Of a stretch of DNA of 64,000 nt, positions 39,101 through 62,510 are shown piece by piece. The first letter of the stretch is position 1, and each line of letters starts with the position of its first letter. A program made the position numbers and the translations under genes. The notes beneath the pieces are model-generated. The model was given only the letters and a program-made list of their open reading frames with translations, did not search any database and was not told the DNA's origin. Source of the DNA: Parapedobacter koreensis (lineage in GTDB: Bacteria > Bacteroidota > Bacteroidia > Sphingobacteriales > Sphingobacteriaceae); assembly GCF_900109365.1 (NCBI RefSeq), contig NZ_FNZR01000007.1, forward strand, positions 248,001-312,000, written 5' to 3'.

Positions 39101-39475
39101 GCCCAAAAATGTGACCTGTATGGTCGATCCCACCGGTACGCGGAATGAAAACTGTCCATCGCCATTTGTCTTGGTGACCAAACCGGGGTTGCCCTTCACT
39201 TGTACAGTTGCCTCAGGCAATGGAGCCCCGCTCTCATCACGCACTGTCCCCGTGATTGTTACCTGTTCTTGAAAAGACGCGTTCAATGCCAGCAATGTGA
39301 TGTTTTTATTCGAGGTTGATGCCGTATGATATGCAATGCCGACACCATGGACATCCGTGTTGCTCGACAGCACAATTACACACATAATGTAGAAGACGGA
39401 GGTTGCTTTAGGCGTTGAATGGCTATGCTTGCGCACGCCACTTGGCGTATTTTTGCCAAATAAAAAGTATTTCAT
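36170..39475 (-). CDS. SusC/RagA TonB-dependent outer-membrane transporter
   Basis: 1101 aa. The N-terminus MKYFLFGKN is shared with other SusC proteins here and is encoded by an antisense promoter. Next are a long signal region, a CarboxypepD-regulatory-like domain (VTITGTVRDESGAPLPEATV), the plug (EEVLVVGYSTQSKKEFTG, VLKDAASTAIYGSRAANGV) and the barrel ending GRTFTFGVNIGI. There is no STN domain and no FecR/sigma pair upstream, so control is probably by its own promoter and the predicted antisense RNA. The plug motif has YST instead of the common YGT. Confidence 0.94.
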   Translation of the reverse strand: MKYFLFGKNTPSGVRKHSHSTPKATSVFYIMCVIVLSSNTDVHGVGIAYHTASTSNKNITLLALNASFQEQVTITGTVRDESGAPLPEATVQVKGNPGLVTKTNGDGQFSFRVPVGSTIQVTFLGYSTAEIAVRNQGPYTINLQPDASELEEVLVVGYSTQSKKEFTGAASRIVADQVKEIPVQSFDQALIGRASGVKINLPNGVLNNAPVIRIRGTNSISLSSYPLIVIDGIPVTSGDVSSNTTVANNPLADINPSDIESIDVLKDAASTAIYGSRAANGVVLVTTKRGKEGSARVTYDGWVGFTDPVRLPELLEAEDFMMIKNEAQLNRKILSGQADNDDVASALFFPSYNADGSMVNTNWYDYMFQTGVQHSHAVSVSGGSPKTRYFFSANLTEQDGFLQTNEFDRTGLRFNLDHDANSWLKLRGSISYTKSENRAPNSGSMEGNAQLIVGAARMAYTLNPNVPAYNPDGTPHLAETPGGPIGNGANQIVSVYYNPVALFELVKNSSTNDRILANVGATINLLKGLNFTTSYSLDRLTTLNVGSTSPVHGSGSTTNGSVTNVTSLFNNWNFTNTLNYDARFADHHISVVGGMDVQDFSRNRWGVNVQQASDPFFTDIQGNWGQVSQSGNLLVNWAFLSYFASLNYDYKSRYFIKFNFRRDGNSALGASTKWGNFGGASAGWTLSEEDFYQGSGLSAVMSSVKLRGGWGRVGNGELNSRYGSLVLFSSSLYGGASTWQLNQAGNPNLGWETSEQTNIGADLGFWNDRILVDFSWFNNDVNGLILDVPQSPSKGIPGNSILGNVGSLYNRGIELGISGDVIRKGKFSWNASFNFTSIKNEVTALEGENSRMVSSSSGNPFNMTEAGYSVGTLYGAITNGINPETGQRIYINAAGEQVQYSAAFPSGGSAWTYLDGSPAPAITAADYQPMGNALPKWYGGFNNTFRYGNFDAGINFSFSGGNYVFNGNTGTWLDQRYFNNSVKVLNRWQQPGDVTDVPRLVFNDNFASANIPNISDYVEKGDLLRLQNVLIGYRLPSQLLAKVGVSSLRIYAQATNVYLFTNYTGVEPESSINGNNPRSPGIEYNSLGNGRTFTFGVNIGI

Positions 39476-39482
39476 ACTTTTA
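39453..39482 (+). promoter_or_regulatory. Antisense promoter over the susC start codon (copy 1)
   Basis: TTG (39453-39455), a 19-nt spacer, TACTTTTA (39475-39482). The first T of the -7 box is also part of the susC start codon complement (CAT 39473-39475). Same spacing and same position as in copies 2 and 3. Confidence 0.6.
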
Positions 39483-39488
39483 CCAAAT

Positions 39489-39578
39489 TAAGGTTAGCTA
39501 TTAGATGATTAATGACGTAATTTTTAGTAGTATACCTTATCCAAGCGGGAGTGCTGCGAACACTCCTGCTTTTCTTTT
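39489..39578 (+). ncRNA. Predicted cis-antisense RNA over susC leader (copy 1)
   Basis: Begins about 7 nt after the -7 box and ends at an intrinsic terminator: GCGGGAGTG (39545-39553) with CACTCCTGC (39561-39569), 7-nt loop CTGCGAA, then TTTTCTTTT. The RNA of about 90 nt would be fully complementary to the leader of the susC mRNA. No plus-strand coding gene lies nearby to explain the terminator. The 5' end is estimated. Confidence 0.6.
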
Positions 39579-39579
39579 G

Positions 39580-40200
39580 TATTCCGTCAATGGTTTATGG
39601 AGGGTAATAATGCTTCATAAAAAAGGGTTAAGCTTGTTAATACCTACTTTAGCACACGCCGATAATGCGGCTTAAAGACCTTTATCCTGCGAAAACAAAA
39701 ACCGTATGTGTTTAGTAGCCATTATGCCAAGCTACTACGGTCATCTTTGTTATGTTGAAGAGGGCAAATTATAATAATCCACCTCTGGTAAAGCCAATTT
39801 TTATCAACAACGAATCACCTAACCAATTATTTTCAAGGCAGTAAGTGATAATATCAAAAATCAAATCACTTAGAACACAATATGGAAACGAGAAAAATAA
39901 AAAATATTTAGTTTGTTTAATTATAAAAACAAACATAACTAAAATCTTATATAATTCACAAAAAAAGTATAATAATATTTTGTTTTTAATCAAAAACATC
40001 ATTAATGAATGAAAAAAACACAAATAATAGAAAGATTTTTATACGTAAATTGAATATTAACCGTTATTTTAAAGCAAAAAACCAAATAACACATCGCAAC
40101 AAGCAGCAAAACACCTGCACATCATTCTATTTTATTGGTAATTATTAGGCTTATACACGGTTAATCAGCCAGAATGGCCGCCTTCATCTCGAAAAGGGAC
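39580..40200. other. AT-rich intergenic region upstream of the susC operon
   Basis: No credible gene. From about 39830 to 40150 the sequence is markedly AT-rich compared with its surroundings. It contains one promoter-like element (listed) and an 84-codon open frame at 39769-40023 that looks like random AT-rich translation. The high AT content may simply be promoter DNA, or may mark an insertion or deletion site. Confidence 0.5.
39930..39961 (-). promoter_or_regulatory. Candidate promoter of the susC-susD-metzincin operon
   Basis: On the minus strand TTG (39959-39961), a 21-nt spacer and TATGTTTG (39930-39937), a perfect TAnnTTTG. It would give a long leader of about 450 nt that includes the region covered by the antisense RNA. 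Confidence 0.4.
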
Positions 40201-40215
40201 ACTATTTTTCATCCC

Positions 40216-40258
40216 ATAAGCGGGTATGCTGCCCCTCAATACAGCATACCCATCTTAT
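40216..40258. terminator. Long hairpin downstream of the amidohydrolase gene
   Basis: GGGTATGCTG (40222-40231) pairs perfectly with CAGCATACCC (40242-40251); the stem extends with ATAAG/CTTAT on the outside. It lies 28 nt after the minus-strand stop at 40286. No strong T-tract follows on either strand, so a terminator role is likely by position but not proven. A smaller CAGCTT/AAGCTG hairpin lies at 40268-40283. Confidence 0.45.
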
Positions 40259-40285
40259 CGGCGTAATACAGCTTACGAAAGCTGC

Positions 40286-41902
40286 CTATTTAAACATGGA
40301 GTGATGGTAAATACCGGGCTGCAGGATTTCGTACTTTTCCTTGGCCTTTTCTTCCTGTACCATCGCTTTTACATCTTCCAATAATTTTTTTGCGTCGTAG
40401 ACGATCCCGTCCTTTACAGTGTACTTCACCCCACCCACGCGCACGACGTCATTATCCTCCGTCACTCGGATTGCGCCGGTGCCATACAACACTTGAAGAT
40501 TTTCAAGCGGGTTTTGATCAACGATCACGAAATCCGCAAGTTTGCCGATTTCCACGCTGCCAATTTCGTCTGCCATGCCCAGTGATTCCGCGCCGTTTAG
40601 CGTTGCCGCTTTGATGACTTCCAGCGGATGGAAGCCCGCCTCACGCAGGAGTTCCATTTCCCTGGGATAAGCAAATCCATACAACGCGTAGATAAAGCCG
40701 GCATCGGTACCCACCGTCACCCGGCCACCGCGATTCTTATATTCATTGACAAATTTCATCCACAGTTGGTAGTTGCGCTTCCACTGCAGTTCCTGTTCCG
40801 TCCCCCAATTAAACCAGTACGAGCCATGAGAAACCCGGTTGGGTTTATAAAATTCCCATAGGGACGGCAACGTATACTCTTCATGCCATTCCGATCGCCT
40901 TGCACGCATCAAATCCCTACTGGCCTCATAGATCACCAAAGTGGGCGAAAGCGTAAAATCCAATGTTATCAATTCATCCATCACCTTGTTCCAACGTTCG
41001 GAGTACGGTTCGGCGGCCTGTTCCCACAGTTGCCCTGCTTCGCCAAAGCGATCCTGTTCATCCTGGTAGTTATACGACAAGGAATAATCCTGTATTGTAC
41101 GATCGGTAAAGAGTGCCTCAGGCAGGCCATACCAGTGTTCCAGCGAAGTAAGTCCGGCCCTGGCACTATGCAACGCATTCCATCGTCCTACATACACCTG
41201 CGCATGATGTGTCTTTGAGCGCAATCCGAGGCGTTTATTTTCCTTGATGGCGGCATCCATGATACGCGGTTCGGCCCCAAAAAATTTAATACCATCCGCT
41301 CCTCTTTCCTTGTTGCTCCGCACCCACGAGACAGCCTGCTCTTCGGTACTGATAGGACCGTCTGACCCTTGGCCAAACCGAGCGTAAGCCTTGATTCTGG
41401 GAGCCGTAATTGTGTTGGCTGCACTTTGCTGTCTTTGCTCCAATACCCACTCCAAGCCATTACCGCATCCCGGATCCGCGATGGTGGTGACGCCATGCGC
41501 CATCCATAGTTTAAACACGTATTCTGCGGATGCCGCCTGTGAGCCGCCGATATGGGCATGCGTATCCACAAATCCCGGCAGCAGGTACATTCCCGTCGCA
41601 TCCAGTTCTTTCCCTCCTTCCACAAGCTTCGGCCGGCGTGCCTCGTTGATGGGCACCCCTGGAGCGCCCACGGTCGCCACATTGACAATCCGATTGCCCT
41701 CCACTACAATATCCACCGGGCCCATGGGCGGCGAAAGCGTGCTGTTTATCAACGTCACCCCACGGATAATCAACTGTTTCCATGGCCCCTCCCCTTCTTC
41801 TCTTTCAGGTGCCCCGGCTACCCTGCCTTGGGCATGCAGCCTGCTGTTTATCCCAAAAAAAGACAAGCAGCAGGCGGTCATCATTATCAGTACATTCTTC
41901 AT
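40286..41902 (-). CDS. Secreted amidohydrolase family protein
   Basis: 538 aa with signal peptide (ending SRLHAQ). Amidohydrolase fold with all expected metal and catalytic positions: HxH at 115/117 (FVDTHAHIGG), Lys206 (GADGIKFFGA), His232/233 (THHAQ), His256 (LEHWYG) and Asp400 (VGTDAGF). A C-terminal composite beta domain follows (EIGKLADFVIVDQNPLENL). Relatives include imidazolonepropionase-like and Xaa-Pro/cyclic dipeptidase-type enzymes; the substrate is not determinable. It is the last gene after three S10 peptidases, so a late peptide-cleaving step is inferred. Confidence 0.87.
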   Translation of the reverse strand: MKNVLIMMTACCLSFFGINSRLHAQGRVAGAPEREEGEGPWKQLIIRGVTLINSTLSPPMGPVDIVVEGNRIVNVATVGAPGVPINEARRPKLVEGGKELDATGMYLLPGFVDTHAHIGGSQAASAEYVFKLWMAHGVTTIADPGCGNGLEWVLEQRQQSAANTITAPRIKAYARFGQGSDGPISTEEQAVSWVRSNKERGADGIKFFGAEPRIMDAAIKENKRLGLRSKTHHAQVYVGRWNALHSARAGLTSLEHWYGLPEALFTDRTIQDYSLSYNYQDEQDRFGEAGQLWEQAAEPYSERWNKVMDELITLDFTLSPTLVIYEASRDLMRARRSEWHEEYTLPSLWEFYKPNRVSHGSYWFNWGTEQELQWKRNYQLWMKFVNEYKNRGGRVTVGTDAGFIYALYGFAYPREMELLREAGFHPLEVIKAATLNGAESLGMADEIGSVEIGKLADFVIVDQNPLENLQVLYGTGAIRVTEDNDVVRVGGVKYTVKDGIVYDAKKLLEDVKAMVQEEKAKEKYEILQPGIYHHSMFK

Positions 41903-41919
41903 ACGGACAGCTTATTGAG

Positions 41920-43401
41920 TTAGTCAACATTATACTTTGCAGGCACACCTTCACCTGGCAATGTTTTTGAAATAAATGCACGGAGGTCGTCATTGGCAGT
42001 TTTCAGATCATCTTTCCTCAGATACATCATATGGCCGCTGCGATAACCCTTCCAATCCATCCGCGCCTTTAATTTTCCGCTCGGATCCATTTGCCAGAGG
42101 TTATATTGCGCATTGAAATAATCCGTGGCCCCATCATAGTACCCCGATTGGACAAGCACATGCAGAAAGGGATTCATAGCCATGGCTTGCCGCAAGCTTT
42201 CACCGGTCTTGTTTTCCAGCGCAAAACGGTTCCAAGAAGCATGCCCAGCCACGTAATATTCCAAATCTGTATGGTAGTTGAGGTAATTTTTGACATAATA
42301 GTTATTTGCCGGCGTAAAGGTATGCTGCCATGACGTGTTTTCCGCGGCATAGTCGGGCCCGTCTCCTGCGACAGTCCGATCGATACCCAGGTACCTGGAA
42401 TCCAGCCTGCCGATGGAATACCCCTCTGCGCGGAGCAGTTCTTTCCAGAAAAAAGCCATGGGCACCACCAGATTATGCTGCAAAATGGCAGTTTCCGAAA
42501 TGCCCATATACCTGGACATTTTGCGGGCGATGGCCTGCTTCTTGCCTGCATCCAGGTAGCCGCCCCTTACCAACGCAGGTATCAGCGAGTCCACTGTATA
42601 GGCTTCTACTTCGGGAAGCACCTCCTCCAAATCCCGCTGCTGCAAATCCGCTGGCAGTTTTTTATGGTACCAAGCAGTAGCCGCATAGTAAGGCAGTAGG
42701 TTTGCATCGCCCACCGGCCCATACCGCCAGAATCCCAGCGTTCCCGGAGATACCAATACTACGCCATTGACATACATCCAATGCCTGTTTTGCAGCTCCA
42801 ATGCCAGACCGGATACGCGGTACGTCCCGTAACTTTCACCGATCAGGTATTTTGGTGATGTCCACCGATTATGACGGCTCACAAATGTAGACAACCAGTT
42901 GCCCAAGTACCTTAGGTCATTGTTGATGCCCAAGAATTGGGAAAGCGGCGCATCACCGACAGGGCGGGAGTATCCGGTATTGACCGGTTCTACGTATACC
43001 AGATCCGTCACATCCAGCAACGAATGGGGATTTTCTTCGATGCCATAAGGCTGGATCGGATAGCCTTCGTCATCGATACGTACGCGGTGAGGTCCGGTAT
43101 AGCCAAGCCTCATCCACAAAGCGCCGGCACCAGGTCCGCCATTGAAGGAAATTGCAAGGGGCCGGGTAGCCTGGTTGGTTACATCCGTGCGGTAATAATA
43201 CGTATAAAAGACCCCTGCTATCACCTTCCCGGCTTCGTCCCACACGGGCTGCATGCCGGTGACTGCATTGAATTTGACTGTTTGTCCATTGATGGTAACC
43301 TGATGTGAGGTCGTCACAGCCGAATCCGGGTTGAATGACCGATCTTGTGCTTGGCAGATATGGGCAGCAAAAAGCGCCAGGATGAAAACAAGTTTTTTCA
43401 T
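41920..43401 (-). CDS. S10-family serine carboxypeptidase-like protein (subtype A)
   Basis: 493 aa, exported (signal ending ICQAQ). Oxyanion-region motif FNGGPGAGALWMRLGYTGPH (about residues 87-105), nucleophile Ser190 in GESYGTYRVSG, Asp423 (or 427) in GYYDGATDYFN and His457 in RSGHMMYLR. The triad is complete, so an active serine carboxypeptidase is expected. The nucleophile elbow is GESYGTYR, where its three paralogues have GESYGTTR. It is the third of three tandem S10 genes, 19 nt after the previous one. Confidence 0.9.
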   Translation of the reverse strand: MKKLVFILALFAAHICQAQDRSFNPDSAVTTSHQVTINGQTVKFNAVTGMQPVWDEAGKVIAGVFYTYYYRTDVTNQATRPLAISFNGGPGAGALWMRLGYTGPHRVRIDDEGYPIQPYGIEENPHSLLDVTDLVYVEPVNTGYSRPVGDAPLSQFLGINNDLRYLGNWLSTFVSRHNRWTSPKYLIGESYGTYRVSGLALELQNRHWMYVNGVVLVSPGTLGFWRYGPVGDANLLPYYAATAWYHKKLPADLQQRDLEEVLPEVEAYTVDSLIPALVRGGYLDAGKKQAIARKMSRYMGISETAILQHNLVVPMAFFWKELLRAEGYSIGRLDSRYLGIDRTVAGDGPDYAAENTSWQHTFTPANNYYVKNYLNYHTDLEYYVAGHASWNRFALENKTGESLRQAMAMNPFLHVLVQSGYYDGATDYFNAQYNLWQMDPSGKLKARMDWKGYRSGHMMYLRKDDLKTANDDLRAFISKTLPGEGVPAKYNVD

Positions 43402-43420
43402 AGCTATATAGTTACTTTAT

Positions 43421-44911
43421 TCAATCAACAGCATATTTCGCAGGGACACCTTCAGCAGGTGTCGTTTGCTTGATAAACACACGGAGATCTTCGTTCGCCG
43501 TTTCCAAATCTTGTTTCCTCAAGTACATCATGTGGCCGCTTCGGTATCCCTTGAAAGACGTCCGGTCCAGCAGCCTGCCCGACGGATCCATGTGCCACAA
43601 GTTATACTTGGCATTGAAGTAATCGCAAGCACCATCATAATATCCGGATTGCACCAAGACGTGCAAATATGGATTTTGTGCCATCGCTTGCCGAAGATTC
43701 AAGCCGGTATTATTCCCGCTGTTGTCCCACCGCCCTACGGGACCAAATAAATTGTACTTGACATCCGTTTTATAATTCAATTGATTCTTATAATAGTAGT
43801 TGATTGCCGGAGTAAACGAGTGCAACCAAGAGGTCAGCTCGGCGGCATAGTCCGGCCTTTCGCCTCCGTCTTTAAAATCAATCCCCAAGTAGCGTGAGTC
43901 CAGTCGGCCAACGGTGTAGCCACGGTCTCTTAACAGCTCTTTCCAAAAAAACGACGTGCTGATATCCAAATTATTCTGCAGGATAACGCCTGCTGAAATC
44001 CCCGAATAATGTGCCATCTTCGCTGCAATAGCCTGTTTTTCCTCAGGGCTCAAACTACCGCCTTTCGCAATAGCAGGTAACAGTTCATTCATAGTAAAAG
44101 CTTCAACCTCCGGCAGCATATCCGTCAAGTCCTTTTGCTGTAATTCAGCGGGCAATGCCTTATGGAACCATGCCGTTGCAGCAAAATACGGCCATCGCAG
44201 GGCTTTTGCTACCGGCCCGCCCCTTTCGATGCCAAGGCCTGTAGGAGATACCAATACCACGCCATTGAGGTACATCCACTGGGCATTTTGCAGTTCCAGC
44301 GCCAGCCCCGAAACCCGTGTTGTCCCATAGCTTTCACCGATGAGGTATTTTGGCGAAGGCCAGCGGTTTTCTCGGGTGACGAAAGTATTCAACCATTCTG
44401 CAAGGTATTTGATATCCGCATTGACGCCAAAGAATTGTGACTTATCGGCTTTCGGATCCAAAATACGGGAATAGCCGGTATTGACCGGGTCGACATAGAC
44501 GATATCCGCAACATCAAGAAGCGAGTATGGGTTTTCCTTCACGCCGTAAGGCTGAATGGGATATCCCTCATCGTCAATCGTAAGTAGCCGTGGCCCGGTA
44601 TAGGCGATATGCATCCATACCGAGCCCGAGCCCGGCCCTCCATTGAATGAGATCACCAGCGGCCTTCGTTCCCTGTCTTTTACGTCGGTTCGCTCATAGT
44701 AGACATAATGTACGGTCGCAATCGCGTCACCCGCCTCATTCCACACGGGTTGTGTACCTGTTTTTGCCGTGTAGCCAAATCGTACGCCTTTTACAGTCAC
44801 CTCATGCTGGGTCACTACTGCGGTATCCGCCCATTGCTTACGCTGGCTGTAGCCCTGGATAATCGAACATACAAGGATTACTATCCCGATTATTTTTCGT
44901 CTATTTTTCAT
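43421..44911 (-). CDS. S10-family serine carboxypeptidase-like protein (subtype B)
   Basis: 496 aa, exported. Motif FNGGPGSGSVWMHIAYTGPR, nucleophile Ser194 (GESYGTTRVSG), Asp in GYYDGACDYFN and His460 (RSGHMMYLR). This member is much closer to the S10 protein of the next operon (55825-57303) than to its tandem neighbours: the last ~90 residues are nearly identical. That suggests a recent duplication between the two loci. The middle gene of three; gaps of 19 and 11 nt. Confidence 0.9.
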   Translation of the reverse strand: MKNRRKIIGIVILVCSIIQGYSQRKQWADTAVVTQHEVTVKGVRFGYTAKTGTQPVWNEAGDAIATVHYVYYERTDVKDRERRPLVISFNGGPGSGSVWMHIAYTGPRLLTIDDEGYPIQPYGVKENPYSLLDVADIVYVDPVNTGYSRILDPKADKSQFFGVNADIKYLAEWLNTFVTRENRWPSPKYLIGESYGTTRVSGLALELQNAQWMYLNGVVLVSPTGLGIERGGPVAKALRWPYFAATAWFHKALPAELQQKDLTDMLPEVEAFTMNELLPAIAKGGSLSPEEKQAIAAKMAHYSGISAGVILQNNLDISTSFFWKELLRDRGYTVGRLDSRYLGIDFKDGGERPDYAAELTSWLHSFTPAINYYYKNQLNYKTDVKYNLFGPVGRWDNSGNNTGLNLRQAMAQNPYLHVLVQSGYYDGACDYFNAKYNLWHMDPSGRLLDRTSFKGYRSGHMMYLRKQDLETANEDLRVFIKQTTPAEGVPAKYAVD

Positions 44912-47871: not shown

Positions 47872-50800
47872 TTAGAATGTTAAATTAAGTCCGCCCATCC
47901 ACAAACGGGGTTGCGGCATCACACCCTGGTCGATGCCTATCGTAAGCGCCGAACCACCAACGGAAACTTCCGGATCCAGCCCACTGTACCTGGTAAACGT
48001 CAGCAGATTCTGCCCGGAAATGTAAAACCGCACCTGGCTTGCACCTATCTTTCTTGAAAGGTTTGCAGGCAATGCATACCCCAAACTGACATTTTTGAGC
48101 CGCAAGTAGGACGCATCCTCAACGTGCCGCGAAGGCCGGTAATTGGTGTTGTAATTCACGCTGGCCATCCTCGGGATATCTGTAATGTCCCCCGGGTTTT
48201 GCCACCTGTCCAGTTGTTGTGCCATGAAACCATACGTCTGCTCGCCACCATGCTCCATAAAATACCGGTTGTAGTTAAACACATAATTACCATAACTAAA
48301 CTGCAAGAAGGTCGTCAGGTCAAAGTTCTTGTACCTGAAATTATTGGAAAGCCCACCCTGAAAATCCGGCCAGGCATTCCTGCTGGAAATAAAGCGATCC
48401 CGATTGACATTGAATGTGCTCTCACCATCTCGGGTACGCCAGATGACATTTCCGGTTTGCGGGTCCACGCCCAACTGCTCGTGCACATAAAACGAATAAA
48501 GGGGATAACCTTCTTCAATCCGGACGTAATCTCTCGTAAACTGATTGAAGGGAGAGGCCAGCCGCTTGACGAGGTTTCTATTCCGTGAGATATTCAAGCC
48601 GATATCCCAGCCAAAATCCTCTTTTGCAAAGACTGCCGCATTGATACCAAATTCGATACCCTTGTTTTCGATTTCACCATAGTTTTGCATCATCGAGCTG
48701 TATCCGGTAGAACGGGGAATGGGCACTTCCAACAAAAGATCCTCCGTTTGTTTGTCATAATAATCAACTGACACATTGAGCTTCCCTTTGAAGAAGGCGA
48801 GGTCGACACCAATGTCCAATTGCGTGGTCGTCTCCCATTTCAGGTCGGGATTAGCCAATTGAACGGGGCTAAGCCCTGCATAATCGCCATATGATGCAGC
48901 ACCTCCAGATCCGGGCGTTGCTCCACCACCACCCCGGTAGCCACCTTGCTGCCCACCCCACAATCCCAGCGATGCATAGTTGTCGATACCGCTCTGGTTT
49001 CCAGTGACACCGTAGCTCACGCGCCATTTCCATAGCGAAATCACAGAGAGGGGCTCCATAAACGCCTCGTCAGACATGATCCAGCCCACCGATGCCGACG
49101 GGAAAAGCCCCCATCGGTTGTTGGCACCAAAGCGTGAAGAGCCGTCATACCTTAAGTTGGCACTGAGCAAGTATTTTTGGTTGTAATCATAATTTACACG
49201 GCCAAAAACCGAAGCGATGGCCCATTCATTCTCATCCCCACTTGAGTTGCGGGTTGCTGCAGAAGACACTTTCCGGAAGCTATCGCTGGGGAAACCCTGC
49301 CCGGTAGCTGACGTAAACGCATTACGGTTTTTTTGGAAAGTCGTTCCTGCCAAGACATCAAGGTTATGCGCATTCTGCAGGGAGATTTTATACGTAAGTA
49401 AATTCTCATTGATCCAGTTAAAGTCATTCACCGCGCTGCTACTAGCCGATCCGCCCACCCCTGCACCGGCGACCATCTTGGTATTTGAGTAGTTATCTTC
49501 ATTGACATAACTGTTGTCCAGGCTCCAGGTTGTTCTAAATACCAAGCCTTTGATAATCGTCCAGTCGGCAAAGAAGTTCCCGATAATCCGGGTGTTGTCC
49601 ATGAGGTAGTCCGTTTCGTTTACGATAGCAAGCGGGCTCTCCCACAACGGTTTGTTATACGAACCATCTTCGTTATAAGCCGGTAGATTTGTCGGGTAAA
49701 AAAATGCATTTGCCAAAGCTGAGCTCGTGCTGTTACCGTTTTGGATCCGGTTTCTACGGCTATTGGAATAGAATATACTTGTCCCAAACTTTAAGTTGTC
49801 AGACGCCGAGAAATCCAGGTTTGTTCTAAACGATCGCCGTTTGAAGTTGACAAGCTTCATGATGCCATCCTGATCAAAGTTATTGGCCGATACCATATAC
49901 CGGATACGATCATTGCCCCCGGCAATCGATGCGTCGATATTATATACCGACCCACGCTGCATGATGTAATCGATCCAATTGGTATTTACGGCGTTGGCGG
50001 GGTTAGCATACGGCGGTGCAAAGGCATTGCCGGATCCATCCAATGCATCAATGCTACCATAACGGTCTATCCAGTTATTGCCGGCTGCCTCATTTTTCAA
50101 TAATTCATAGGTAGGTCCGTCCACGCGCAATTCATTCGGATCTCGCCATGCTTTCGACGTGCCAACATACGTAGAAATTGACACCGTTGGTTTTCCAGCA
50201 GCCCCTCTTTTTGTGGTTATCAAGACCACCCCATTGGCGGCCCTTGCCCCATAAATCGCGGTAGCTGCCGCATCCTTCAGCACCTCCATTGATTCAATAT
50301 CTGCGGGGTTGATATCAGCCAGTGGGTTGGTAGGTTGCCCAAAACTGCTCCTTGCCAAGTTCTCGGACACGATAGGCACACCATCAATGACGTATAAAGG
50401 TTCTGAACTTGCATTGATAGACGTGCTCCCCCTTACCCGTACGATAATACCGCCGCCCGGCTCGCCCGAATTGGCGGTCACCTGCACGCCGGGCGCCCTG
50501 CCCTGGAGCATTTGATCCGGGCTTGGCATCGGCAAATCTTTTAGCGTTTCCCCGTCTACACGGGTGATAGCACCCGTAACTGTCCGTTTGCTTTGCTCGC
50601 CGTAGCCTACGACGATCACTTCGTCCAATTGAGACGCATCCTCCTGTAGCTGGATGTCATACGGTCCCTCATTCGTGGTCGTTACCTCTTTTGACAGGTA
50701 GCCGATGTACGATATTTGAATGACGGCGTTTTTGGGTACCCTCAGCGCAAAGTTTCCAGAGCCATCTGTTTTCGTGCCGATATTGGGCTGGTTCTTGACC

Positions 50801-51279
50801 GTGACGGTAGCGCCAGTAAGGCCAGCCCCCGTAGCGTCTTTGACCGTGCCCGAAATGGCCACCTCTTCCTGCTTGCTAACCTCCTTTTTAAGGTTCGCAA
50901 ATTGCATTTTAGGAGGTGTCACGATGATCGTTTCCGAAATAATTTTGTAAGCCATGCCTTGTTTATGGATTACATGGTCAAGCACATGCTGTATTTCCGC
51001 GTTCTTTACATAAATACTCACCAAATCCGACAGTTGGATGACCTCATCGCTGTACAAAAAGCGATAGTCCGTTTGTTTAGTTATTTCGCGAAAAACTTGT
51101 TCGAGGTTTGCATTCTTCAAGGAGAGTGTCACTTTTTGTGCTCTCCCTTCAGCATACGCTCCCGTTACAAATGCAATTAGCAAATAAAACGTGATCTTCA
51201 CGGCGAGTAGGAATTTAGTGGGCGCAACATGCCAACATTTGCTGGTAGGCATATCATTGCCAATTAAAAAGTATTTCAT
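47872..51279 (-). CDS. SusC/RagA TonB-dependent transporter with STN domain
   Basis: 1135 aa. N-terminus MKYFLIGND over the antisense promoter; signal helix; STN domain (KVTLSLKNANLEQVFREITK through ISETIIVTPP, about 50-125); CarboxypepD-regulatory-like domain (ISGTVKDATGAGLTGATVTV); plug (LDEVIVVGYGEQSKRTVTG, VLKDAAATAIYGARAANGV); barrel ending RLWMGGLNLTF. The STN domain should signal to the FecR encoded upstream (51428). In this locus the sigma gene is missing apart from a short remnant, so signalling would need a sigma factor from elsewhere. Confidence 0.95.
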   Translation of the reverse strand: MKYFLIGNDMPTSKCWHVAPTKFLLAVKITFYLLIAFVTGAYAEGRAQKVTLSLKNANLEQVFREITKQTDYRFLYSDEVIQLSDLVSIYVKNAEIQHVLDHVIHKQGMAYKIISETIIVTPPKMQFANLKKEVSKQEEVAISGTVKDATGAGLTGATVTVKNQPNIGTKTDGSGNFALRVPKNAVIQISYIGYLSKEVTTTNEGPYDIQLQEDASQLDEVIVVGYGEQSKRTVTGAITRVDGETLKDLPMPSPDQMLQGRAPGVQVTANSGEPGGGIIVRVRGSTSINASSEPLYVIDGVPIVSENLARSSFGQPTNPLADINPADIESMEVLKDAAATAIYGARAANGVVLITTKRGAAGKPTVSISTYVGTSKAWRDPNELRVDGPTYELLKNEAAGNNWIDRYGSIDALDGSGNAFAPPYANPANAVNTNWIDYIMQRGSVYNIDASIAGGNDRIRYMVSANNFDQDGIMKLVNFKRRSFRTNLDFSASDNLKFGTSIFYSNSRRNRIQNGNSTSSALANAFFYPTNLPAYNEDGSYNKPLWESPLAIVNETDYLMDNTRIIGNFFADWTIIKGLVFRTTWSLDNSYVNEDNYSNTKMVAGAGVGGSASSSAVNDFNWINENLLTYKISLQNAHNLDVLAGTTFQKNRNAFTSATGQGFPSDSFRKVSSAATRNSSGDENEWAIASVFGRVNYDYNQKYLLSANLRYDGSSRFGANNRWGLFPSASVGWIMSDEAFMEPLSVISLWKWRVSYGVTGNQSGIDNYASLGLWGGQQGGYRGGGGATPGSGGAASYGDYAGLSPVQLANPDLKWETTTQLDIGVDLAFFKGKLNVSVDYYDKQTEDLLLEVPIPRSTGYSSMMQNYGEIENKGIEFGINAAVFAKEDFGWDIGLNISRNRNLVKRLASPFNQFTRDYVRIEEGYPLYSFYVHEQLGVDPQTGNVIWRTRDGESTFNVNRDRFISSRNAWPDFQGGLSNNFRYKNFDLTTFLQFSYGNYVFNYNRYFMEHGGEQTYGFMAQQLDRWQNPGDITDIPRMASVNYNTNYRPSRHVEDASYLRLKNVSLGYALPANLSRKIGASQVRFYISGQNLLTFTRYSGLDPEVSVGGSALTIGIDQGVMPQPRLWMGGLNLTF

Positions 51280-51286
51280 ACTTTTG
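51257..51286 (+). promoter_or_regulatory. Antisense promoter over the susC start codon (copy 2)
   Basis: TTG (51257-51259), a 19-nt spacer, TACTTTTG (51279-51286). This is the best match of the three: both boxes fit the Bacteroidota consensus. The -7 box begins at the last base of the start codon complement (CAT 51277-51279). Confidence 0.65.
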
Positions 51287-51292
51287 CCTAAT

Positions 51293-51379
51293 TAAGGGGT
51301 TAAATGATAGATTAATTTGACACAGTTTAGCGTTTAGCCTTCGCCGGGAGTGCTGCCAACACTCCCGCTTTTTCTTTTT
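51293..51379 (+). ncRNA. Predicted cis-antisense RNA over susC leader (copy 2)
   Basis: Terminator CGGGAGTG (51345-51352) with CACTCCCG (51360-51367), loop CTGCCAA, then C and TTTTTCTTTTT. The RNA of about 87 nt starts within the susC leader close to the ATG and runs toward FecR. Just inside it shares AATTAAGG with copy 1, and TTTAGCCTT before the terminator with copy 3. Confidence 0.65.
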
Positions 51380-51427
51380 ACGAGGCTCTTTAGTTCGACG
51401 TTGGTGTTGTTTTCATCTTGTTGGTTT

Positions 51428-52603
51428 TTACGTTATCAATGGATTAGTTAAAAATCGTACGGAGACCTGCTGGCCACTCACTTCAAAGGTAGCACCGCTT
51501 GCATAAGACAGCATATCAAGCACTTCCGATAAATTGGACGAACGTTGGATATTTCCGTTGAACCTTTCTGTCGGTGGTTCGTCTTCAAAGTTTACCGAAA
51601 TGTCATACCACCTGGACAATTGCGCCATGATCTCCTTGATGTCATCGCTTTTAAAGTAAAAATCACCGTTTTTCCAGGCGATGGCTTTCTCAATGTTAGC
51701 CGGCTGCAGTGTGATGTCATGCCCTACCTGCGCCTCCTCTCCCGGTTTCAGCGATTGCACCTTCCCTTTGTTGGATATCGTGATAGCTCCTTCCAATAAC
51801 GTGGCAGCTACCTGTGCGTATGCGTTGATGTTAAAATGCGTCCCCAATACGTGCACCTGTGCGCCACCTACCTCTACCAAGAATGGCTTGGTGGCATCAG
51901 GGGCAACTTCAAAATACGCCTCGCCTTTCAATTGTACAGTCCGCTCCTTATGGCCGAAATGCACGGGAAATGTCAATTCCGACATGGCATTCAACCATAC
52001 TTTAGTGCCGTCAGACAAGGTAAGGTGATAAGTACCTGCCTTCGGAATCAACAAGGTATTGTAAATCAGATCCCCATTGTCCATGGCCTTGGCCGCATAA
52101 GTCAACGAACCCTCGCTTCCGACAATTTCGGTACCATCTTGTTCTTGCAGCTTATCCGCATACGCCCGTAGATCCACGGTCCGGCCATCGGATAAAATCA
52201 ATTGCGCTTTATTACCTCCCGGCTTCACGTCATTGTAAAAGATATTGCCCACTTCAGTCCGGTTCGGTTTGGCGACCGTATCCTGCGGCCGTGAAAACCA
52301 TATCCACAAGACGATCGTGATGGTCGCTGCATACCCGACGTAGCGCATGGCGTGCATTATGCGTTTCCATCTCAGCCCATGGCTTTGCCTACGCATTTTG
52401 GACCACGCAACCTCCGCGTCTATTCCCCTGATGAAATCAATATCCTGTTGTACTTGCTCCATATTCCGGAATGACTCCAGCAGCCGCCGGTTGTCTTCAT
52501 GCTCCTCCAACCAGTGTTGTAATATTACCTGGCCCTCTTCCGAAAGTTGATTCCGTAGGTATTTGCTGATCAATTCGGCGATATGGTATTGATTTGGCCT
52601 CAT
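51428..52603 (-). CDS. FecR-family anti-sigma factor (no sigma gene adjacent)
   Basis: 391 aa. Cytoplasmic N-terminus (about 1-84), one transmembrane helix (YVGYAATITIVLWIWF), a periplasmic FecR domain (AQLILSDGRTVDLRAYADKL, YHLTLSDGTKVWLNAMSELT, VQLKGEAYFEVAPDATKPFL, VHVLGTHFNINAY) and a C-terminal DUF4974-type domain (IKEIMAQLSRWYDISVNFED). It should bind the STN domain of the SusC downstream. Unlike the other two FecR genes in the window it has no intact sigma gene upstream, only a 16-codon remnant. Confidence 0.93.
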   Translation of the reverse strand: MRPNQYHIAELISKYLRNQLSEEGQVILQHWLEEHEDNRRLLESFRNMEQVQQDIDFIRGIDAEVAWSKMRRQSHGLRWKRIMHAMRYVGYAATITIVLWIWFSRPQDTVAKPNRTEVGNIFYNDVKPGGNKAQLILSDGRTVDLRAYADKLQEQDGTEIVGSEGSLTYAAKAMDNGDLIYNTLLIPKAGTYHLTLSDGTKVWLNAMSELTFPVHFGHKERTVQLKGEAYFEVAPDATKPFLVEVGGAQVHVLGTHFNINAYAQVAATLLEGAITISNKGKVQSLKPGEEAQVGHDITLQPANIEKAIAWKNGDFYFKSDDIKEIMAQLSRWYDISVNFEDEPPTERFNGNIQRSSNLSEVLDMLSYASGATFEVSGQQVSVRFLTNPLIT

Positions 52604-57303: not shown

Positions 57304-57334
57304 AATAGTCTATTGATTTAAAAAGCGATTAGCA

Positions 57335-57372
57335 AAATAAAAATTATCGCATCCCTGCGATGCAGGGATGCG
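57335..57372 (-). terminator. Terminator-like hairpin between susD-like and S10 genes
   Basis: Perfect 11-bp stem CGCATCCCTGC (57348-57358) with GCAGGGATGCG (57362-57372), 3-nt loop, followed on the minus strand by ATAATTTTTATTTT. It lies within the operon, between the SusD stop (57397) and the S10 start (57303). It should attenuate downstream expression or form a stable 3' end for a susC-susD mRNA. Confidence 0.7.
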
Positions 57373-57396
57373 TTTGAATGTATTAGCAATCCTTAA

Positions 57397-58923
57397 TTAT
57401 TGCCTCGTATCCCAAAATGCCCGCTCAAGCAACGACGAACGTTGCGTCATGTGCGGGTTATTGTTGATTTCGGATTGTGCATAAGGCAATAGCCGCGGCA
57501 CTTCATCATAGATTGCCGCCGGTTGTTGGTGTGGCACCAAGCTCGGGTATCCCGTCCTGCGGTAATCCGTCCATGGTTCTACCAACACCGCATAGTTTGC
57601 CACATACTTTTCGTTGATGATTTGCTCCAACCGTTGCTCATTGGTACCGCTGAGCGTACCATGGGCAGCCAAATAGCCGTCGATTTCTGCCTGCTCCATC
57701 CCGGCTTCCAGCATGGATGCCCGGACACCCTCCGCAAAAAACGCATTGGCATCACCAGGTGCACTATATAACAGCGCAGCCTCGGCTCGAATGAAGTTAT
57801 ATTCAGCATACGTCAGCAGCCGGGCAGGGCCATCCCCACCATACGTGATTGCACCATCCTGCAAACTGCCATTGGGGTTTATCCGCGCCGGATCAACCGG
57901 CGAAGCGTTTCCGTAAACGTACGAATGGATGCGTGAATAGGCCGAAGACGGCTCGTTGTCCAAGAAACTGGCTCCCCGATAGGTAGCTGGGCTTGAATTA
58001 TACGGGAATGGCACGAAATACGCGCGCCTACGCGGATCATCGTTGCTGTTCATCAAATCCACCAGGAACCTATTCGGATAAAATTGGTTCCTGAACTGGC
58101 CATTTTCCATGCTGTACAACGGGTTTTGGCGCTGTGATTCTGCCAGAAAAGGCATTTTGAAACTGTCATCATTGCTTTCCATGAATTGCGCACCGCTGTT
58201 GACCAACGCGGAAATCTGCTGGGAAGCAAATGCAGCATCCTTCGCGCTGTAATGCAAAAATATCCGCAGTTTTAAGGTATTGCCGAATTTCTCCCATTTT
58301 TCCTGGGCCGAAGGCCAGTCATTGCTCGCATAGATGGTCGAGTATTGATTGGGCGACAAGGTGGAAGTAGGGGCATTGATGTTGGCAATACCGTCATCAA
58401 TCAACCGGATCAGGTCGGCATATATCGCTTCATCGTCGTCCACTTCAGGATACAAATTCTCTGAATGTTTCGCGGCATTGAAATAAGGGACATCTCCCCA
58501 GGAATCCACCACAATTTGATAGATATACGCTTTCAGCAACTTAGCTACGCCGGCATAATGTGGGTTACCGGACTCCTCAGCCTTGTCAATCAGCAATTGC
58601 GCATCGCTCAATGCCGTCCCGAATATCCGTACCCACTGGCCGTTTACATCGGAGTCATTGATGTTATACCGTTCGTATTCCCGGAAGGTACCGAAGCCGG
58701 TATTCGGACCATGGCCGCTGAATTGTTGGGCCAAAAGTGACGCATAACGGAATAAATCACTTGCGCCCATATAACCCACATTGACGGTCACCGAAGGCAA
58801 CAACTGGGTGATCTGCACATCGGTCACATTATTGGGGTCATCATTTACATCAAGAAACTTCTCGCATGACCCGAAAAGCACAACACTTGTCGTCAGTAAA
58901 ATATAAAATAGCTTCTTTTTCAT
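57397..58923 (-). CDS. SusD/RagB family lipoprotein (SusD-like_2 type)
   Basis: 508 aa, start MKKKLFYILLTTSVVLFGSC with lipobox FGSC. The mature N-terminus EKFLDVNDDPNNVTDVQITQ and QQFSGHG, together with a C-terminal QIINEKYVANYAVLVEPWTD and YRRTGYP block, are typical of the SusD-like_2 subgroup rather than classical RagB/SusD. It pairs with the SusC upstream (30-nt gap). Confidence 0.9.
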   Translation of the reverse strand: MKKKLFYILLTTSVVLFGSCEKFLDVNDDPNNVTDVQITQLLPSVTVNVGYMGASDLFRYASLLAQQFSGHGPNTGFGTFREYERYNINDSDVNGQWVRIFGTALSDAQLLIDKAEESGNPHYAGVAKLLKAYIYQIVVDSWGDVPYFNAAKHSENLYPEVDDDEAIYADLIRLIDDGIANINAPTSTLSPNQYSTIYASNDWPSAQEKWEKFGNTLKLRIFLHYSAKDAAFASQQISALVNSGAQFMESNDDSFKMPFLAESQRQNPLYSMENGQFRNQFYPNRFLVDLMNSNDDPRRRAYFVPFPYNSSPATYRGASFLDNEPSSAYSRIHSYVYGNASPVDPARINPNGSLQDGAITYGGDGPARLLTYAEYNFIRAEAALLYSAPGDANAFFAEGVRASMLEAGMEQAEIDGYLAAHGTLSGTNEQRLEQIINEKYVANYAVLVEPWTDYRRTGYPSLVPHQQPAAIYDEVPRLLPYAQSEINNNPHMTQRSSLLERAFWDTRQ

Positions 58924-58953
58924 CTCTTTTAACTTTAATCTTTGGTCTCCAAT

Positions 58954-61900
58954 TTAGAGCGTTAAACGAATACTACCACCGATGGTACGAGCTGTGGGTT
59001 GGATACCAAACTCCAATCCCCGTGCATTGCTAATCCCCAGCAGGTTTTGCTCAGGATCAAGGTGCGGATAATTCGGTGCATACATGAATAAGTTGCGCCC
59101 ATAAACCGACAGGTTAACCGCTTTGATGACCTTTTGGTTGCCCAAGAGCCGTACCGGCAATCGGTAAGACAGGTTGGCCTCACGAAGCTTCACGAATGTA
59201 GCATCCAATACGTAGCCTTCCCAAGCCACGTATTTGCCCTGCAAGCCATAGTATTGTTGCGCCGTGACGGGGATATTATTCGGTGTACCGTCTTCCAGCA
59301 CGCCTTCAAAGATATACGGGGTACTGGGTGTGCCATCGGCATTAAACCTCGGGTGTTCAGCAGTTTCCGCTGCAACGCCATTGATCTGCAAATCGCCAAT
59401 CGTCCGCGACAGTTGGTCGCCCTTATATTTGAAGTCAAACAAGAAGGAGAAGGTAAAGTCTTTAAACGTAAGCGTGTTGTTCCAGCCCAGCACGAATTTC
59501 GGATTGGGGTTTCCTACCCGTTGCACCGCCGATGTTGGCCGGGGCAATCCATTGGCGCCGATGATCATTTGCCCGTCATTGTTCCGTTGATAGGCATTAG
59601 ACCAGATTTGGCCGTATTCCTCCCCGGAAACTAAGCGAATATTCGGTGACGTAAATCCACCGAGGGAAATGTTATCTACGCCGGGAGCCAGCTCTTCGAC
59701 GATGGATTTGAAGGTGGTAAAGTTAAATGAGGCATCCCAGTTGAAATTTTCCTTTTTAATTGGCACCACCCTTAGCAGCAGTTCAAGACCCTTTGTGGAC
59801 AATTTACCCGCATTGGTCGTTACGCTGGTGAAACCCGATGAAGAAGGAACCGGTACGGAAAAAATCAGATTCCGGGTATCACGCCTATACACAGACCCAT
59901 CCAAAAACACCCGCCCGCTGAACAGGGAAACTTCCGTTCCCAATTCAATTTCACGGGTAAACTCCGGTTGCAACTGCGGGTTGCCCGCACCATTATTTAG
60001 CGTATAGCCCGCTAAGCCATTAAACGGGAAATTGACAGCGGTAGATCCCAAGCCATCGCCTGCACTAGCCCTGCCGTAATAGGTGTTGGTATCATAAGGT
60101 CCCGTACCTTTACCCACTTCACCGATGTTTGCCCGGATTTTGAGTGACGACAACACATCCGATTTCAGTGAAGGAAATGCTTCGGTAGGCACCCAGCTTA
60201 TCGCCAGCGCGGGATAAAAAATTGACCGATTGCCGGGCGCTAATGTCGAGGAAAAATCATTCCGCGCCTTGACGTTTACCGAAAGGAAGTTTTTGTAGTC
60301 TACTACCAGATCCGCAAAGACGCCAACAGCACGTTGTTCCGTAATGGATCCGGATGGATTGAAAGTCAAAAAGTTTCGTTGGTTAGCAAAACCAGGTAAT
60401 ACAATCCCCAATCCTACAGCCGATACACTGCTACTGTAATTGGCGATGATCTCATTTCCCACTGTGGCCAAAACGTTAATGTCTTCGCCGATTTTCCGAT
60501 TGCCGGTCACCGTAAAGTATGAATTGATATTTCTAACAGTGCTCGATTGATCGGACAAACCTCCAGCTCCGGCTGAGTTGGTATTCGCATTGCTTCGCAC
60601 GCCCATGTCGTCGAAACCCTTTGACGCACTATTGAACACATCCGCGCCCACTTTCAAGTCAGCTTGCAACCAATCCAAGATGTCATACTTCAGATTTACG
60701 TTGCCATAGAACCGATTGACCTCTCTCCGATTCGTGATGTGATTTATGGACCAATAGGGATGATCTTCTGCGGCATACCACAATTGGTTGCCTTCTTCAT
60801 CCTCATAGGGTAGGTTCGTTAAATCGTAGCTCCGTGGGGCATAGATGCCCCGCCATAGCGGATTAGCGCCTTGGTTACCGGATTGTGTCCGGTCTGATGA
60901 GTTATTTGTATACGAAAATGAGGTGCCGATTTTTAGTTTGTCCGAAACCTGCGTACCTACATTAACGGACAAGTTATTCCGTGTCAGCTCGTTATTGGGC
61001 ACCAAGCCAGTCTCTTTGGTATAGCCATACGAAATGCGATAATCGTATCTATCGGTCGCCCCTGAAAAACTGAGGTCGTTTTGGGACGAGATCGAATTTT
61101 GCAGGATGTCCCGAATATTATCGGGATACGCACGCAGCACTTCGTCTTCACCAAACCAGTTCCGGACGGTTTGTCCTTCTATCCTTGGCCCCCACGATCC
61201 GGCCACGTTGTTGATGTAGTTGCCGTTACTGCCCTGCGCATACTCGTTTTGGAAATCGGGGAAACGGCTCACCGTACCCACCGCCGTGTTTGTTCCCACA
61301 TTCACTTGGTTGCGTGTACCCTGCTTTCCTTTTTTCGTCGTAATCAGAATGACCCCCGAAGCGGCCCGTGAGCCATACAGCACCGTTGCTGCTGCACCCT
61401 TAAGCACGCTGATGTTTTCGATATCCTGCGGATTGATATCCGATATCCGGCTGGAGTTAACAACGCCCGTGTTCACCGAATTGCCTCCGCCTGAATTATC
61501 CAAAGGTATACCATCCACCACATATAGCGGTTGGTTGCTTCCTGTAAATGTGGAAAAACCACGAATCGTTACGTTAGAGCCTGCGAAGCCACCACCAGCG
61601 CCACTGACCTGTACACCAGCGACTTTTCCAGACAAGGCATTGGTGACGTCGGTCGTTGGCGATTTAGCCAATTCTTCGCTCTTCATCTCACTGACTCCGT
61701 AGCCCAGTGTCTTCCTATCGCGTTGGATACCGAATGACGTAACCACCACTTCTTCAAGCTCTGAAAACGATTCATCCAACACCACCGTAATCGACCGGTT
61801 ATTCGTGACGGTCACTTCTTTCGCTTCATAACCGATAAACGACACGACCAGCACCGAGTTTACGGGTACGGTCAAGGTAAAACGGCCTGCCGCATCGGTA

Positions 61901-62415
61901 TTAGTACCCCGGCCGGCAACGCCCTTTACGTTTACAGATGCTTGCGTCAGCACGTTGCCCTGTTTATCCATCACCACTCCACTGACGGTCACGTCATCCT
62001 GCACCGGTTCCGTCGTTGCTTCAGCAGGGACGTTCTTCCTTATTGCTTTCTTATTTTCGGCCACCATGATGGTACCCGACATCATTTTGTATTGAAGCAG
62101 CCATTGGTCGGAAATCTTGTCCAATGCATCATTCAAGGTTGCATCCTTGACATCAATGTCCATGGAAGCGGATTTATCGATTGTATCGTCGCTATACAAA
62201 AATCGATAATTGGTTTGCTTCGCTATTTCAGCAAAAACACGATCCACTTTGACATTTTTCATGGAGAGCGTGATTTTTTGGGCCCTGCCTTCGGCGTGGA
62301 CACCAATCACCATTACCAGCATCATAAAAAAGATCATTTTCATGATTAGCAGTGTTTTTTTTAAGATTGAACCAGCGGATGTACCTGATTTTTTGTAAAA
62401 TAAAAAGTAATGCAT
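58954..62415 (-). CDS. SusC/RagA TonB-dependent transporter with STN domain
   Basis: 1153 aa from the ATG at 62415 (MHYFLFYKKSG), which aligns with the starts of the other SusC proteins; an ATG four codons earlier (62427) is also open. An STN domain (ITLSMKNVKVDRVFAEIAKQ onward, about 48-125) is followed by a CarboxypepD-regulatory-like domain, the plug (LEEVVVTSFGIQRDRKTLGYG, VLKGAAATVLYGSRAASGV) and a barrel ending IGGSIRLTL. The plug motif VVTSFGIQRDRKTLGYGV differs from the usual VVVGYGTQ and is typical of the SusC subgroup that pairs with SusD-like_2 lipoproteins. Confidence 0.94.
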   Translation of the reverse strand: MHYFLFYKKSGTSAGSILKKTLLIMKMIFFMMLVMVIGVHAEGRAQKITLSMKNVKVDRVFAEIAKQTNYRFLYSDDTIDKSASMDIDVKDATLNDALDKISDQWLLQYKMMSGTIMVAENKKAIRKNVPAEATTEPVQDDVTVSGVVMDKQGNVLTQASVNVKGVAGRGTNTDAAGRFTLTVPVNSVLVVSFIGYEAKEVTVTNNRSITVVLDESFSELEEVVVTSFGIQRDRKTLGYGVSEMKSEELAKSPTTDVTNALSGKVAGVQVSGAGGGFAGSNVTIRGFSTFTGSNQPLYVVDGIPLDNSGGGNSVNTGVVNSSRISDINPQDIENISVLKGAAATVLYGSRAASGVILITTKKGKQGTRNQVNVGTNTAVGTVSRFPDFQNEYAQGSNGNYINNVAGSWGPRIEGQTVRNWFGEDEVLRAYPDNIRDILQNSISSQNDLSFSGATDRYDYRISYGYTKETGLVPNNELTRNNLSVNVGTQVSDKLKIGTSFSYTNNSSDRTQSGNQGANPLWRGIYAPRSYDLTNLPYEDEEGNQLWYAAEDHPYWSINHITNRREVNRFYGNVNLKYDILDWLQADLKVGADVFNSASKGFDDMGVRSNANTNSAGAGGLSDQSSTVRNINSYFTVTGNRKIGEDINVLATVGNEIIANYSSSVSAVGLGIVLPGFANQRNFLTFNPSGSITEQRAVGVFADLVVDYKNFLSVNVKARNDFSSTLAPGNRSIFYPALAISWVPTEAFPSLKSDVLSSLKIRANIGEVGKGTGPYDTNTYYGRASAGDGLGSTAVNFPFNGLAGYTLNNGAGNPQLQPEFTREIELGTEVSLFSGRVFLDGSVYRRDTRNLIFSVPVPSSSGFTSVTTNAGKLSTKGLELLLRVVPIKKENFNWDASFNFTTFKSIVEELAPGVDNISLGGFTSPNIRLVSGEEYGQIWSNAYQRNNDGQMIIGANGLPRPTSAVQRVGNPNPKFVLGWNNTLTFKDFTFSFLFDFKYKGDQLSRTIGDLQINGVAAETAEHPRFNADGTPSTPYIFEGVLEDGTPNNIPVTAQQYYGLQGKYVAWEGYVLDATFVKLREANLSYRLPVRLLGNQKVIKAVNLSVYGRNLFMYAPNYPHLDPEQNLLGISNARGLEFGIQPTARTIGGSIRLTL

Positions 62416-62422
62416 ACTTTTA
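62393..62422 (+). promoter_or_regulatory. Antisense promoter over the susC start codon (copy 3)
   Basis: TTG (62393-62395), a 19-nt spacer, TACTTTTA (62415-62422), with the -7 box again beginning at the last base of the start codon complement (CAT 62413-62415). This coincidence supports the start chosen at 62415. Confidence 0.6.
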
Positions 62423-62428
62423 TGCAAT

Positions 62429-62510
62429 TGAGGTTAATTGAATAAGTTAGTTAAACACCTTTAAGATTTAGCCTTATCAGGGAGTGCGCCAACACTCCCG
62501 ACTTTTTCTT
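62429..62510 (+). ncRNA. Predicted cis-antisense RNA over susC leader (copy 3)
   Basis: Terminator GGGAGTG (62480-62486) with CACTCCC (62493-62499), loop CGCCAA, then GAC and TTTTTCTT. Predicted RNA about 82 nt. Internal AATTGAGGTTAA near the 5' end and TTTAGCCTTATCA before the terminator resemble the other copies. Confidence 0.6.

Follow-up and report, generated by a model that had tools for sequence, protein, structure and literature searches.

In a 64,000-nucleotide stretch of the Parapedobacter koreensis genome (contig NZ_FNZR01000007.1, positions 248,001 to 312,000; hereafter the window), three minus-strand genes encode SusC-like TonB-dependent receptors, and the start codon of each appears to face a short antisense transcription unit on the plus strand. 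The first gene, susC 1 (36170..39475), is identified by Pfam and has no STN match; its upstream neighbor on the same strand is an amidohydrolase-like open reading frame (ORF) and not fecR (Pfam). Both susC 2 (47872..51279) and susC 3 (58954..62415, with its ATG at 62415; the ORF list starts at an upstream TTG, 62427) have an STN domain by Pfam. Upstream of each lies a minus-strand gene for the anti-sigma factor FecR, at 51428..52603 (Pfam FecR and FecR_C) and 62579..63727 (Pfam), respectively.

Opposite the three start codons, we predict plus-strand promoters consisting of TTG-N19 followed by TACTTTTA (39453..39482), TACTTTTG (51257..51286) and TACTTTTA again (62393..62422), with -7 boxes at 39475-39482, 51279-51286 and 62415-62422. 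The initial annotation of this DNA had read TTG-N19-TACTTTT(A/G) at these places, and the pattern is exact, with TTG at 39453, 51257 and 62393; the first T of each -7 box is, as that annotation also held, the complement of the same start-codon base, the A of the susC ATG. Applying the spacing of the Flavobacterium psychrophilum sigma-A box, which the available text of PMC9723704 gives as TAnnTTTG at -12 to -5, places the RNA starts at 39487, 51291 and 62427. Each predicted start lies about 12 nt upstream of the ATG, and therefore the promoter would cover the start codon and the RNA only the leader.

The predicted plus-strand RNAs are antisense RNA 1 (39487..39579, about 93 nt, fold -32.5 kcal/mol), which combines a 5'-closing stem with a terminator, antisense RNA 2 (51291..51379, about 89 nt, -26.8 kcal/mol) and antisense RNA 3 (62427..62510, about 84 nt, -20.9 kcal/mol). 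Folding bears out the annotated terminators at all three loci: 39543-39571 (arms 39543-39553 and 39561-39571; antisense terminator -16.9 kcal/mol), a core at 51346-51366 (arms 51346-51352 and 51360-51366; -13.2 kcal/mol) and 62480-62499 (arms 62480-62486 and 62493-62499). A T-rich run follows each stem on the plus strand; at the third locus, the spacer GAC separates the stem from the T-run at 62503-62510. The proposal of three related antisense RNAs over susC leaders thus stands as a prediction, and its number was too small: the family is far larger than three, with a fourth member in the window itself, at 11361.

At that fourth locus, a predicted plus-strand -7 box, TACTTTTG (11361..11368), lies over the ATG of another susC (8209-11361), without a TTG at N19. 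The predicted RNA (11373..11446, about 74 nt, -29.9 kcal/mol) folds into a 5' stem and a terminator whose stem has another sequence, CGGATTGC/GCAATCCG (-20.0 to -20.5 kcal/mol). This susC has no STN match in Pfam and is preceded by another susC and a 510-aa ORF (11527-13059), not by fecR.

The three annotated loci share 77% mean column identity over the aligned stretch, so they are paralogs and amount to one observation rather than three. Since three tandem paralogs are weak evidence on their own, we tested susC leaders genome-wide and across genera. For P. koreensis, the best 56 of 165 candidates from a TIGR04056 search and the third window gene, added by hand, gave 57 SusC-like genes, and all 57 leaders were extracted: 21 of the FecR-linked type and 36 of other susC genes. 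Leaders were assigned to the FecR-linked class when the susC frame was extended at its N-terminal end by 330 nt or more, which we used to recognize the STN/FecR-linked type, counting from the first ATG as the start; in every group, the box search also allowed in-frame ATGs within the next 30 nt. To these 21 we added 54 leaders from eight genomes of the same genus (of at least 63 candidates; up to 10 per genome plus 10 further loci), one from Olivibacter sitiensis DSM 17696 (Sphingobacteriaceae; SusC 74% identical, same leader layout) and 22 further leaders, hand-picked among the matches listed by their N-terminal extension with the leader unseen. Of those 22, 21 come from four other genera of the window's family, Sphingobacteriaceae, and one, L210, from another family, so that 97 of the 98 FecR-linked-type leaders belong to Sphingobacteriaceae. 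One Bacteroides-like genome, G526, served as comparison, with 16 FecR-type and 20 other leaders among at least 56 susC genes listed; we call it Bacteroides-like from 84% identity to PDB chain 5t3r_D, whose organism we take to be B. thetaiotaomicron. Of the 111 upstream ORFs scanned, including the Bacteroides-like set and each limited to 260 aa, 105 gave a FecR Pfam match; an upstream ORF was absent at two leaders, and a separate Pfam search covered the third window locus.

Intrinsic terminators of -10 kcal/mol or below that read away from susC are present in 76 of the 98 leaders, against 3 on the sense strand and about 4.1 in dinucleotide shuffles of the leaders. By group, the antisense counts are 16/21 in the own genome, 41/54 in the genus, 1/1 in Olivibacter and 18/22 among the further leaders, compared with 1, 2, 0 and 0 on the sense strand and 0.6, 3.0, 0.1 and 0.4 in shuffles. 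Among the 36 other susC leaders of the own genome, six have an antisense terminator and three a sense one; two of those six are the window loci at 39475 and 11361, which lack an STN match and share the same layout. The class difference recurs in G526 (9/16 FecR-type leaders versus 1/20 others), and L210 has neither terminator nor box. The third window locus scores only -4.6 under the automatic rule, because of its GAC spacer, and is counted as a miss. Position and T-run recur while the stem sequences vary between loci, and because the stems differ, an exact short pattern of box plus GGAGTG stem matched just 3 of 151 genomes, G106 among them. Separately, GRAGYG/GWAGYG is frequent in the leader hairpin stems (22/69, versus 2/20 in other window terminators). 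A hairpin-anchored motif search of 79 leaders for a sense-strand promoter returned only the A-tract beside the hairpin.

The promoter box follows the same distribution. A strict TAnnTTTG lies on or against the start codon in 62 of the 98 FecR-linked-type leaders (10/21 own, 35/54 same-genus, 1/1 Olivibacter, 16/22 further) and in four of the 16 G526 FecR-type leaders, all four with a terminator; among other susC leaders, it occurs in 1/36 in the own genome and 0/20 in G526. The single exception is the window locus at 11361, where a terminator is also present. Over a set of 148 leaders, box and terminator co-occur (43/31/8/66, p=1.3e-9), and the 51 boxes occupy just three registers, -2, +2 and +3 relative to the start codon, so that the box overlaps ATG bases in most leaders. 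The box at susC 1 is in register +2, the commonest of the three, with A instead of G as its last base. The initial annotation expected this architecture to be kept at related susC genes, and it recurs across the genus, in four further genera of the family and in a Bacteroides-like genome; the overlap of promoter and start codon that it pointed out here is not special to these loci but general to the group, some Bacteroides-like leaders among them. As an observation in its own right, the start codons of the three annotated genes sit inside a perfect inverted repeat, AAAAGTA-N5-TACTTTT (39463-39481, 51267-51285, 62403-62421), found nowhere else in the window and with 0 expected in shuffles; it is possibly an operator, or just the box together with conserved first codons.

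We compared the two strands of the stretch from predicted start to terminator, each against same-strand shuffles, in the 64 leaders with a terminator and a box ending in G or A. The predicted antisense RNAs have a median length of 98 nt (range 71-146). Their 5' domain folds with a median z of -2.0, versus -0.7 for the sense strand (paired Wilcoxon p=5e-11), with z below -2 in 34 antisense and 10 sense sequences, and a stem closes the 5' end in 55 antisense sequences, compared with 29 sense and 25.6 in shuffles. All four window RNAs fold as a 5' stem plus terminator. Given this stronger folding of the antisense strand, it is probably the antisense RNA that functions; selection for structure in the mRNA would leave no such asymmetry.

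We propose, with a probability of roughly 0.75, that a short cis-antisense RNA made at each locus represses leaky expression of susC in the manner of DonS of Bacteroides fragilis. Sequence statistics back the box, the terminator, the strand-specific fold and the association with FecR-linked susC genes; transcription, pairing, the repressive direction and the dependence on a signal are what we infer from them. The TAnnTTTG-type promoter across the start codon would fire from the opposite strand, away from the gene and through its leader, and antisense transcription would end at the intrinsic terminator some 90-110 nt upstream of the ATG. The resulting RNA would fold into a 5'-closing stem and a terminator hairpin, with complementarity between its 5' arm and the region where susC translation initiates. 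Without the inducing sigma/FecR/STN-SusC signal, this RNA would pair with the leader and either hinder initiation or expose the mRNA to decay, RNA polymerase occupying the antisense promoter over the start codon would further lower leaky expression, and induction of the sense strand would override the antisense RNA. The most likely mechanism is interference with initiation through this pairing, to which polymerase occupancy over the start codon would contribute.

Several points weigh against this proposal. Only the box at 51279 among the three annotated ones matches TAnnTTTG in full, the other two deviating at the last base; the strict box is missing from 36 of the 98 leaders and reaches only 4/16 in G526, and 22 of the 98 have no called terminator. 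The TTG at -33, which the initial annotation included in the promoter, is indeed present at the three loci and is not a family feature, occurring at N19 in just 4 of the 51 boxed leaders. The sense-side adenines of the box partly coincide with the upstream adenines that, according to the available text of PMC9976891, F. johnsoniae initiation regions favor, and the box may be part-shared with that signal. The consensus fold of the six nearest relatives of the window-type RNAs contains the terminator stem only, with 8 pairs, 1 of them changed on both sides; the 5' stem is seen in single-sequence folds and therefore rests on many-locus statistics, not on covariation. The p values overstate independence because the leaders are related by descent. 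Finally, some antisense/susC pairs of B. thetaiotaomicron correlate positively, as the accessible parts of PMC7366714, PMC10994844 and PMC11697453 report.

An alternative that we judge unlikely, and yet the most durable of those considered, is that the RNA is a by-product: the promoter would act by occupancy or head-on collision, and the terminator would shield the upstream gene and the mini-ORF described below. The locking of the box to the start codon fits this view, as do the confinement of antisense transcription to the leader by the terminator and the low position-wise conservation of the stretch between hairpin and start, except for its start-proximal 20 nt. It does not account for the strand-specific fold of the 5' domain beyond composition, for which occupancy alone would not select.

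The sense strand of the same leaders has a further feature. Between the stop of the upstream gene and the hairpin, a closed ORF of a few codons is present in 41 of the 45 leaders where this interval measures 35 nt or more, while first-order Markov sequences give 23.0 +- 2.7 (largest value 32 in 500 runs); under a looser rule that admits ATGs in the FecR tail, it is found in 76 of the 87 leaders with a terminator. In the 38 single-stop leaders, the median distance from the stop of this mini-ORF to the hairpin is 23.5 nt (quartiles 18-30); the nearest stops of all 76 give a median of 19 and the Shine-Dalgarno-led ones 28, while a median of 24.5 nt is biased by choosing, among several stops, the one nearest to 22 nt from the hairpin. 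The candidate mini-ORFs of the window, all on the minus strand, are MKHYYPP (39595..39618, in the susC 1 leader, 23 nt before the hairpin), MKTTPTSN (51390..51416, susC 2), MKDSNYHPT (62518..62547, susC 3) and MLKDKIP (11465..11488, upstream of the fourth hairpin). The idea of a conserved arrest peptide was rejected, as an MKxYYPP-like pattern was found in only 2 of 395 genomes, one of them the window's own, and the peptide sequence is for that reason regarded as not conserved. A sense leader-peptide attenuator was likewise rejected, sense terminators being present in 3/98 leaders. Proline makes up 29 of the 288 residues after the first methionine and is C-terminal in 11 of 75 mini-ORFs, counts that were set against no proper background; a C-terminal proline could slow termination.

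Many mini-ORFs are led by a Shine-Dalgarno site, a signal that Bacteroidota ribosomes, which hide the anti-Shine-Dalgarno, mostly ignore (PMC9976891, available text). On the sense strand, such a site precedes the mini-ORF start in 37 of the 98 leaders, compared with 1 of 98 for the reverse strand; the corresponding mini-ORFs have 1-11 codons and occur in 0/36 other susC leaders of the own genome, 0/16 FecR-type leaders of G526 and 2/20 of its others. AGGAGG occurs 43 times in the leaders on the sense strand and 0 on the reverse, AAGGAG 38 and 2. The site is often inside the last codons of fecR, where AGG arginine codons are enriched (42/85 in FecR tails versus 132/1050 in bodies, p=8e-15, 68 cluster representatives) and the density of GGAGG peaks (13.2 per kb over the final 30 nt, other bins 0 to 3.4). 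The 29 FecRs with such tails have a median pairwise identity of just 35%, which makes common descent by itself an unlikely explanation. At several fecR 3' ends (for example, L045, L131, L135, L187, L198 and L209), AAGGAGG or a close variant stands about 9-10 nt ahead of an ATG-X-stop that shares the reading frame of the FecR tail (GRRxxVMx-stop), and AGG codon bias there is strong. AAGGAGG-N3-12-ATG-NNN-TRA is not rare genome-wide (4 matches versus 5 for the reversed pattern); the arguments for the site are its strand asymmetry, the codon bias and its position. The exact 16S 3'-end pattern, the sole pattern tried to confirm the anti-Shine-Dalgarno of the own genome, had 0 matches. The mini-ORF starts at the window loci are A-rich and without a Shine-Dalgarno site, and in this they do not resemble the ribosomal protein gene rpsU.

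These features would suit a two-strand device, in which one strand encodes the folded antisense repressor, made from the promoter locked to the start codon, and, on the other, the mini-ORF, led in many leaders of the family by a Shine-Dalgarno site that normal ribosomes of the phylum disregard, parks or terminates a ribosome about 24 nt before the hairpin, senses ribosome state (for example, bS21-free ribosomes) and gates sense transcription and translation past the antisense RNA; we consider this elaboration doubtful and less probable than the by-product view.

Very improbable is a reading without any antisense RNA, in which the hairpin stabilizes or attenuates the susC mRNA and the -7 box is a translation-initiation signal. 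The hairpin could form in the mRNA too, and the upstream adenines of F. johnsoniae initiation regions (PMC9976891, available text) would read as TTT on the opposite strand. However, on the sense strand it is the run 5' of the hairpin that is A-rich, the terminators read away from susC (76 antisense versus 3 sense of 98), the box is nearly absent from other susC leaders (1/36 and 0/20) and antisense folding of the leader is stronger than sense folding. That the three-locus match merely reflects the ancestry of functionless tandem paralogs can be dismissed almost entirely: the loci are clearly homologous, at 77% mean column identity, but the same layout with other stems recurs at the fourth locus, in five genera of the family and in the Bacteroides-like genome.

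Around the window loci, the cargo genes encode four S10 carboxypeptidase-like proteins, an amidohydrolase and a Met-zincin, which makes the peptide-directed role given to these clusters by the initial annotation plausible. The sole Rfam match in the window at the gathering threshold is a tRNA.

If our proposal of antisense repression is correct, a type of repressor known from gut Bacteroides would extend, judging by sequence, to another family of the phylum, with a layout that the sequences tie to FecR-linked susC genes, which are under sigma/anti-sigma control. The fixed geometry, in which the -7 box shares bases of the start codon, would make such RNAs predictable in other genomes and allow clean promoter mutations to be planned. 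Translation of the Shine-Dalgarno-led mini-ORF, if it occurs, would add a second use of these sites in the phylum, and the two-strand device, if true, would couple nutrient-importer expression to the translation apparatus.

DonS and the cis-antisense RNAs associated with polysaccharide utilization loci (PULs) in Bacteroides were reportedly described by Cao et al. in 2016. The initial annotation chose DonS as its comparison, and the accessible parts of PMC7366714, PMC10994844 and PMC11697453 indicate that it is the right one: PUL-associated antisense RNAs are 78-128 nt long and divergent to susC homologs, 32 are annotated in B. thetaiotaomicron, some of them seen on northern blots, and some antisense/susC pairs are anti-correlated. 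DonS itself represses in B. fragilis by a mechanism stated as unknown (PMC11697453, available text). The RNAs predicted here likewise lie on the strand opposite the 5' end of susC and point away from the gene, with the box on the start codon and the terminator in the leader. Their predicted lengths (93, 89 and 84 nt) fall within that range and the fourth (74 nt) just below it, and they have a TAnnTTTG-type promoter (with a final A in two of the three annotated boxes) and an intrinsic terminator of their own. Because length, divergent position, promoter and terminator match, we describe them as DonS-like, a likeness of layout, and suggest by analogy that they work as DonS does; G526 shows the same layout (terminator 9/16, strict box 4/16). 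They differ in the host family, Sphingobacteriaceae, in the peptidase-rich cargo in the window, and from G526 in the Shine-Dalgarno-led mini-ORFs beside many of them (37/98 versus 0/16). We found no description of the mini-ORF or of such antisense RNAs in Sphingobacteriaceae in titles and abstract openings, a search outside which most subscription literature falls.

Two other systems offer partial parallels. The FopS small RNAs of B. thetaiotaomicron, as described in the available text of PMC11697453, bind near the start codons of susC mRNAs and block translation initiation, the site at which our predicted RNAs would act; unlike these, each fully complementary to one leader, the FopS RNAs are paralogous and reach several targets through a seed region. 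For rpsU, the accessible part of PMC9976891 reports autoregulation that depends on the Shine-Dalgarno site and on ribosomes lacking bS21, an exceptionally strong site in nearly all Sphingobacteriales and no Bacteroidales, and strong sites in the phylum mainly at ribosomal protein genes. The sites found here differ in preceding a 1-11-codon ORF upstream of susC rather than a ribosomal protein gene. They resemble rpsU in being strong, at normal distance before a start codon and confined to the sense strand (37/98 versus 1/98), and the taxonomic split is parallel, with Shine-Dalgarno-led mini-ORFs in the window's family and none at the 16 FecR-type leaders of G526.

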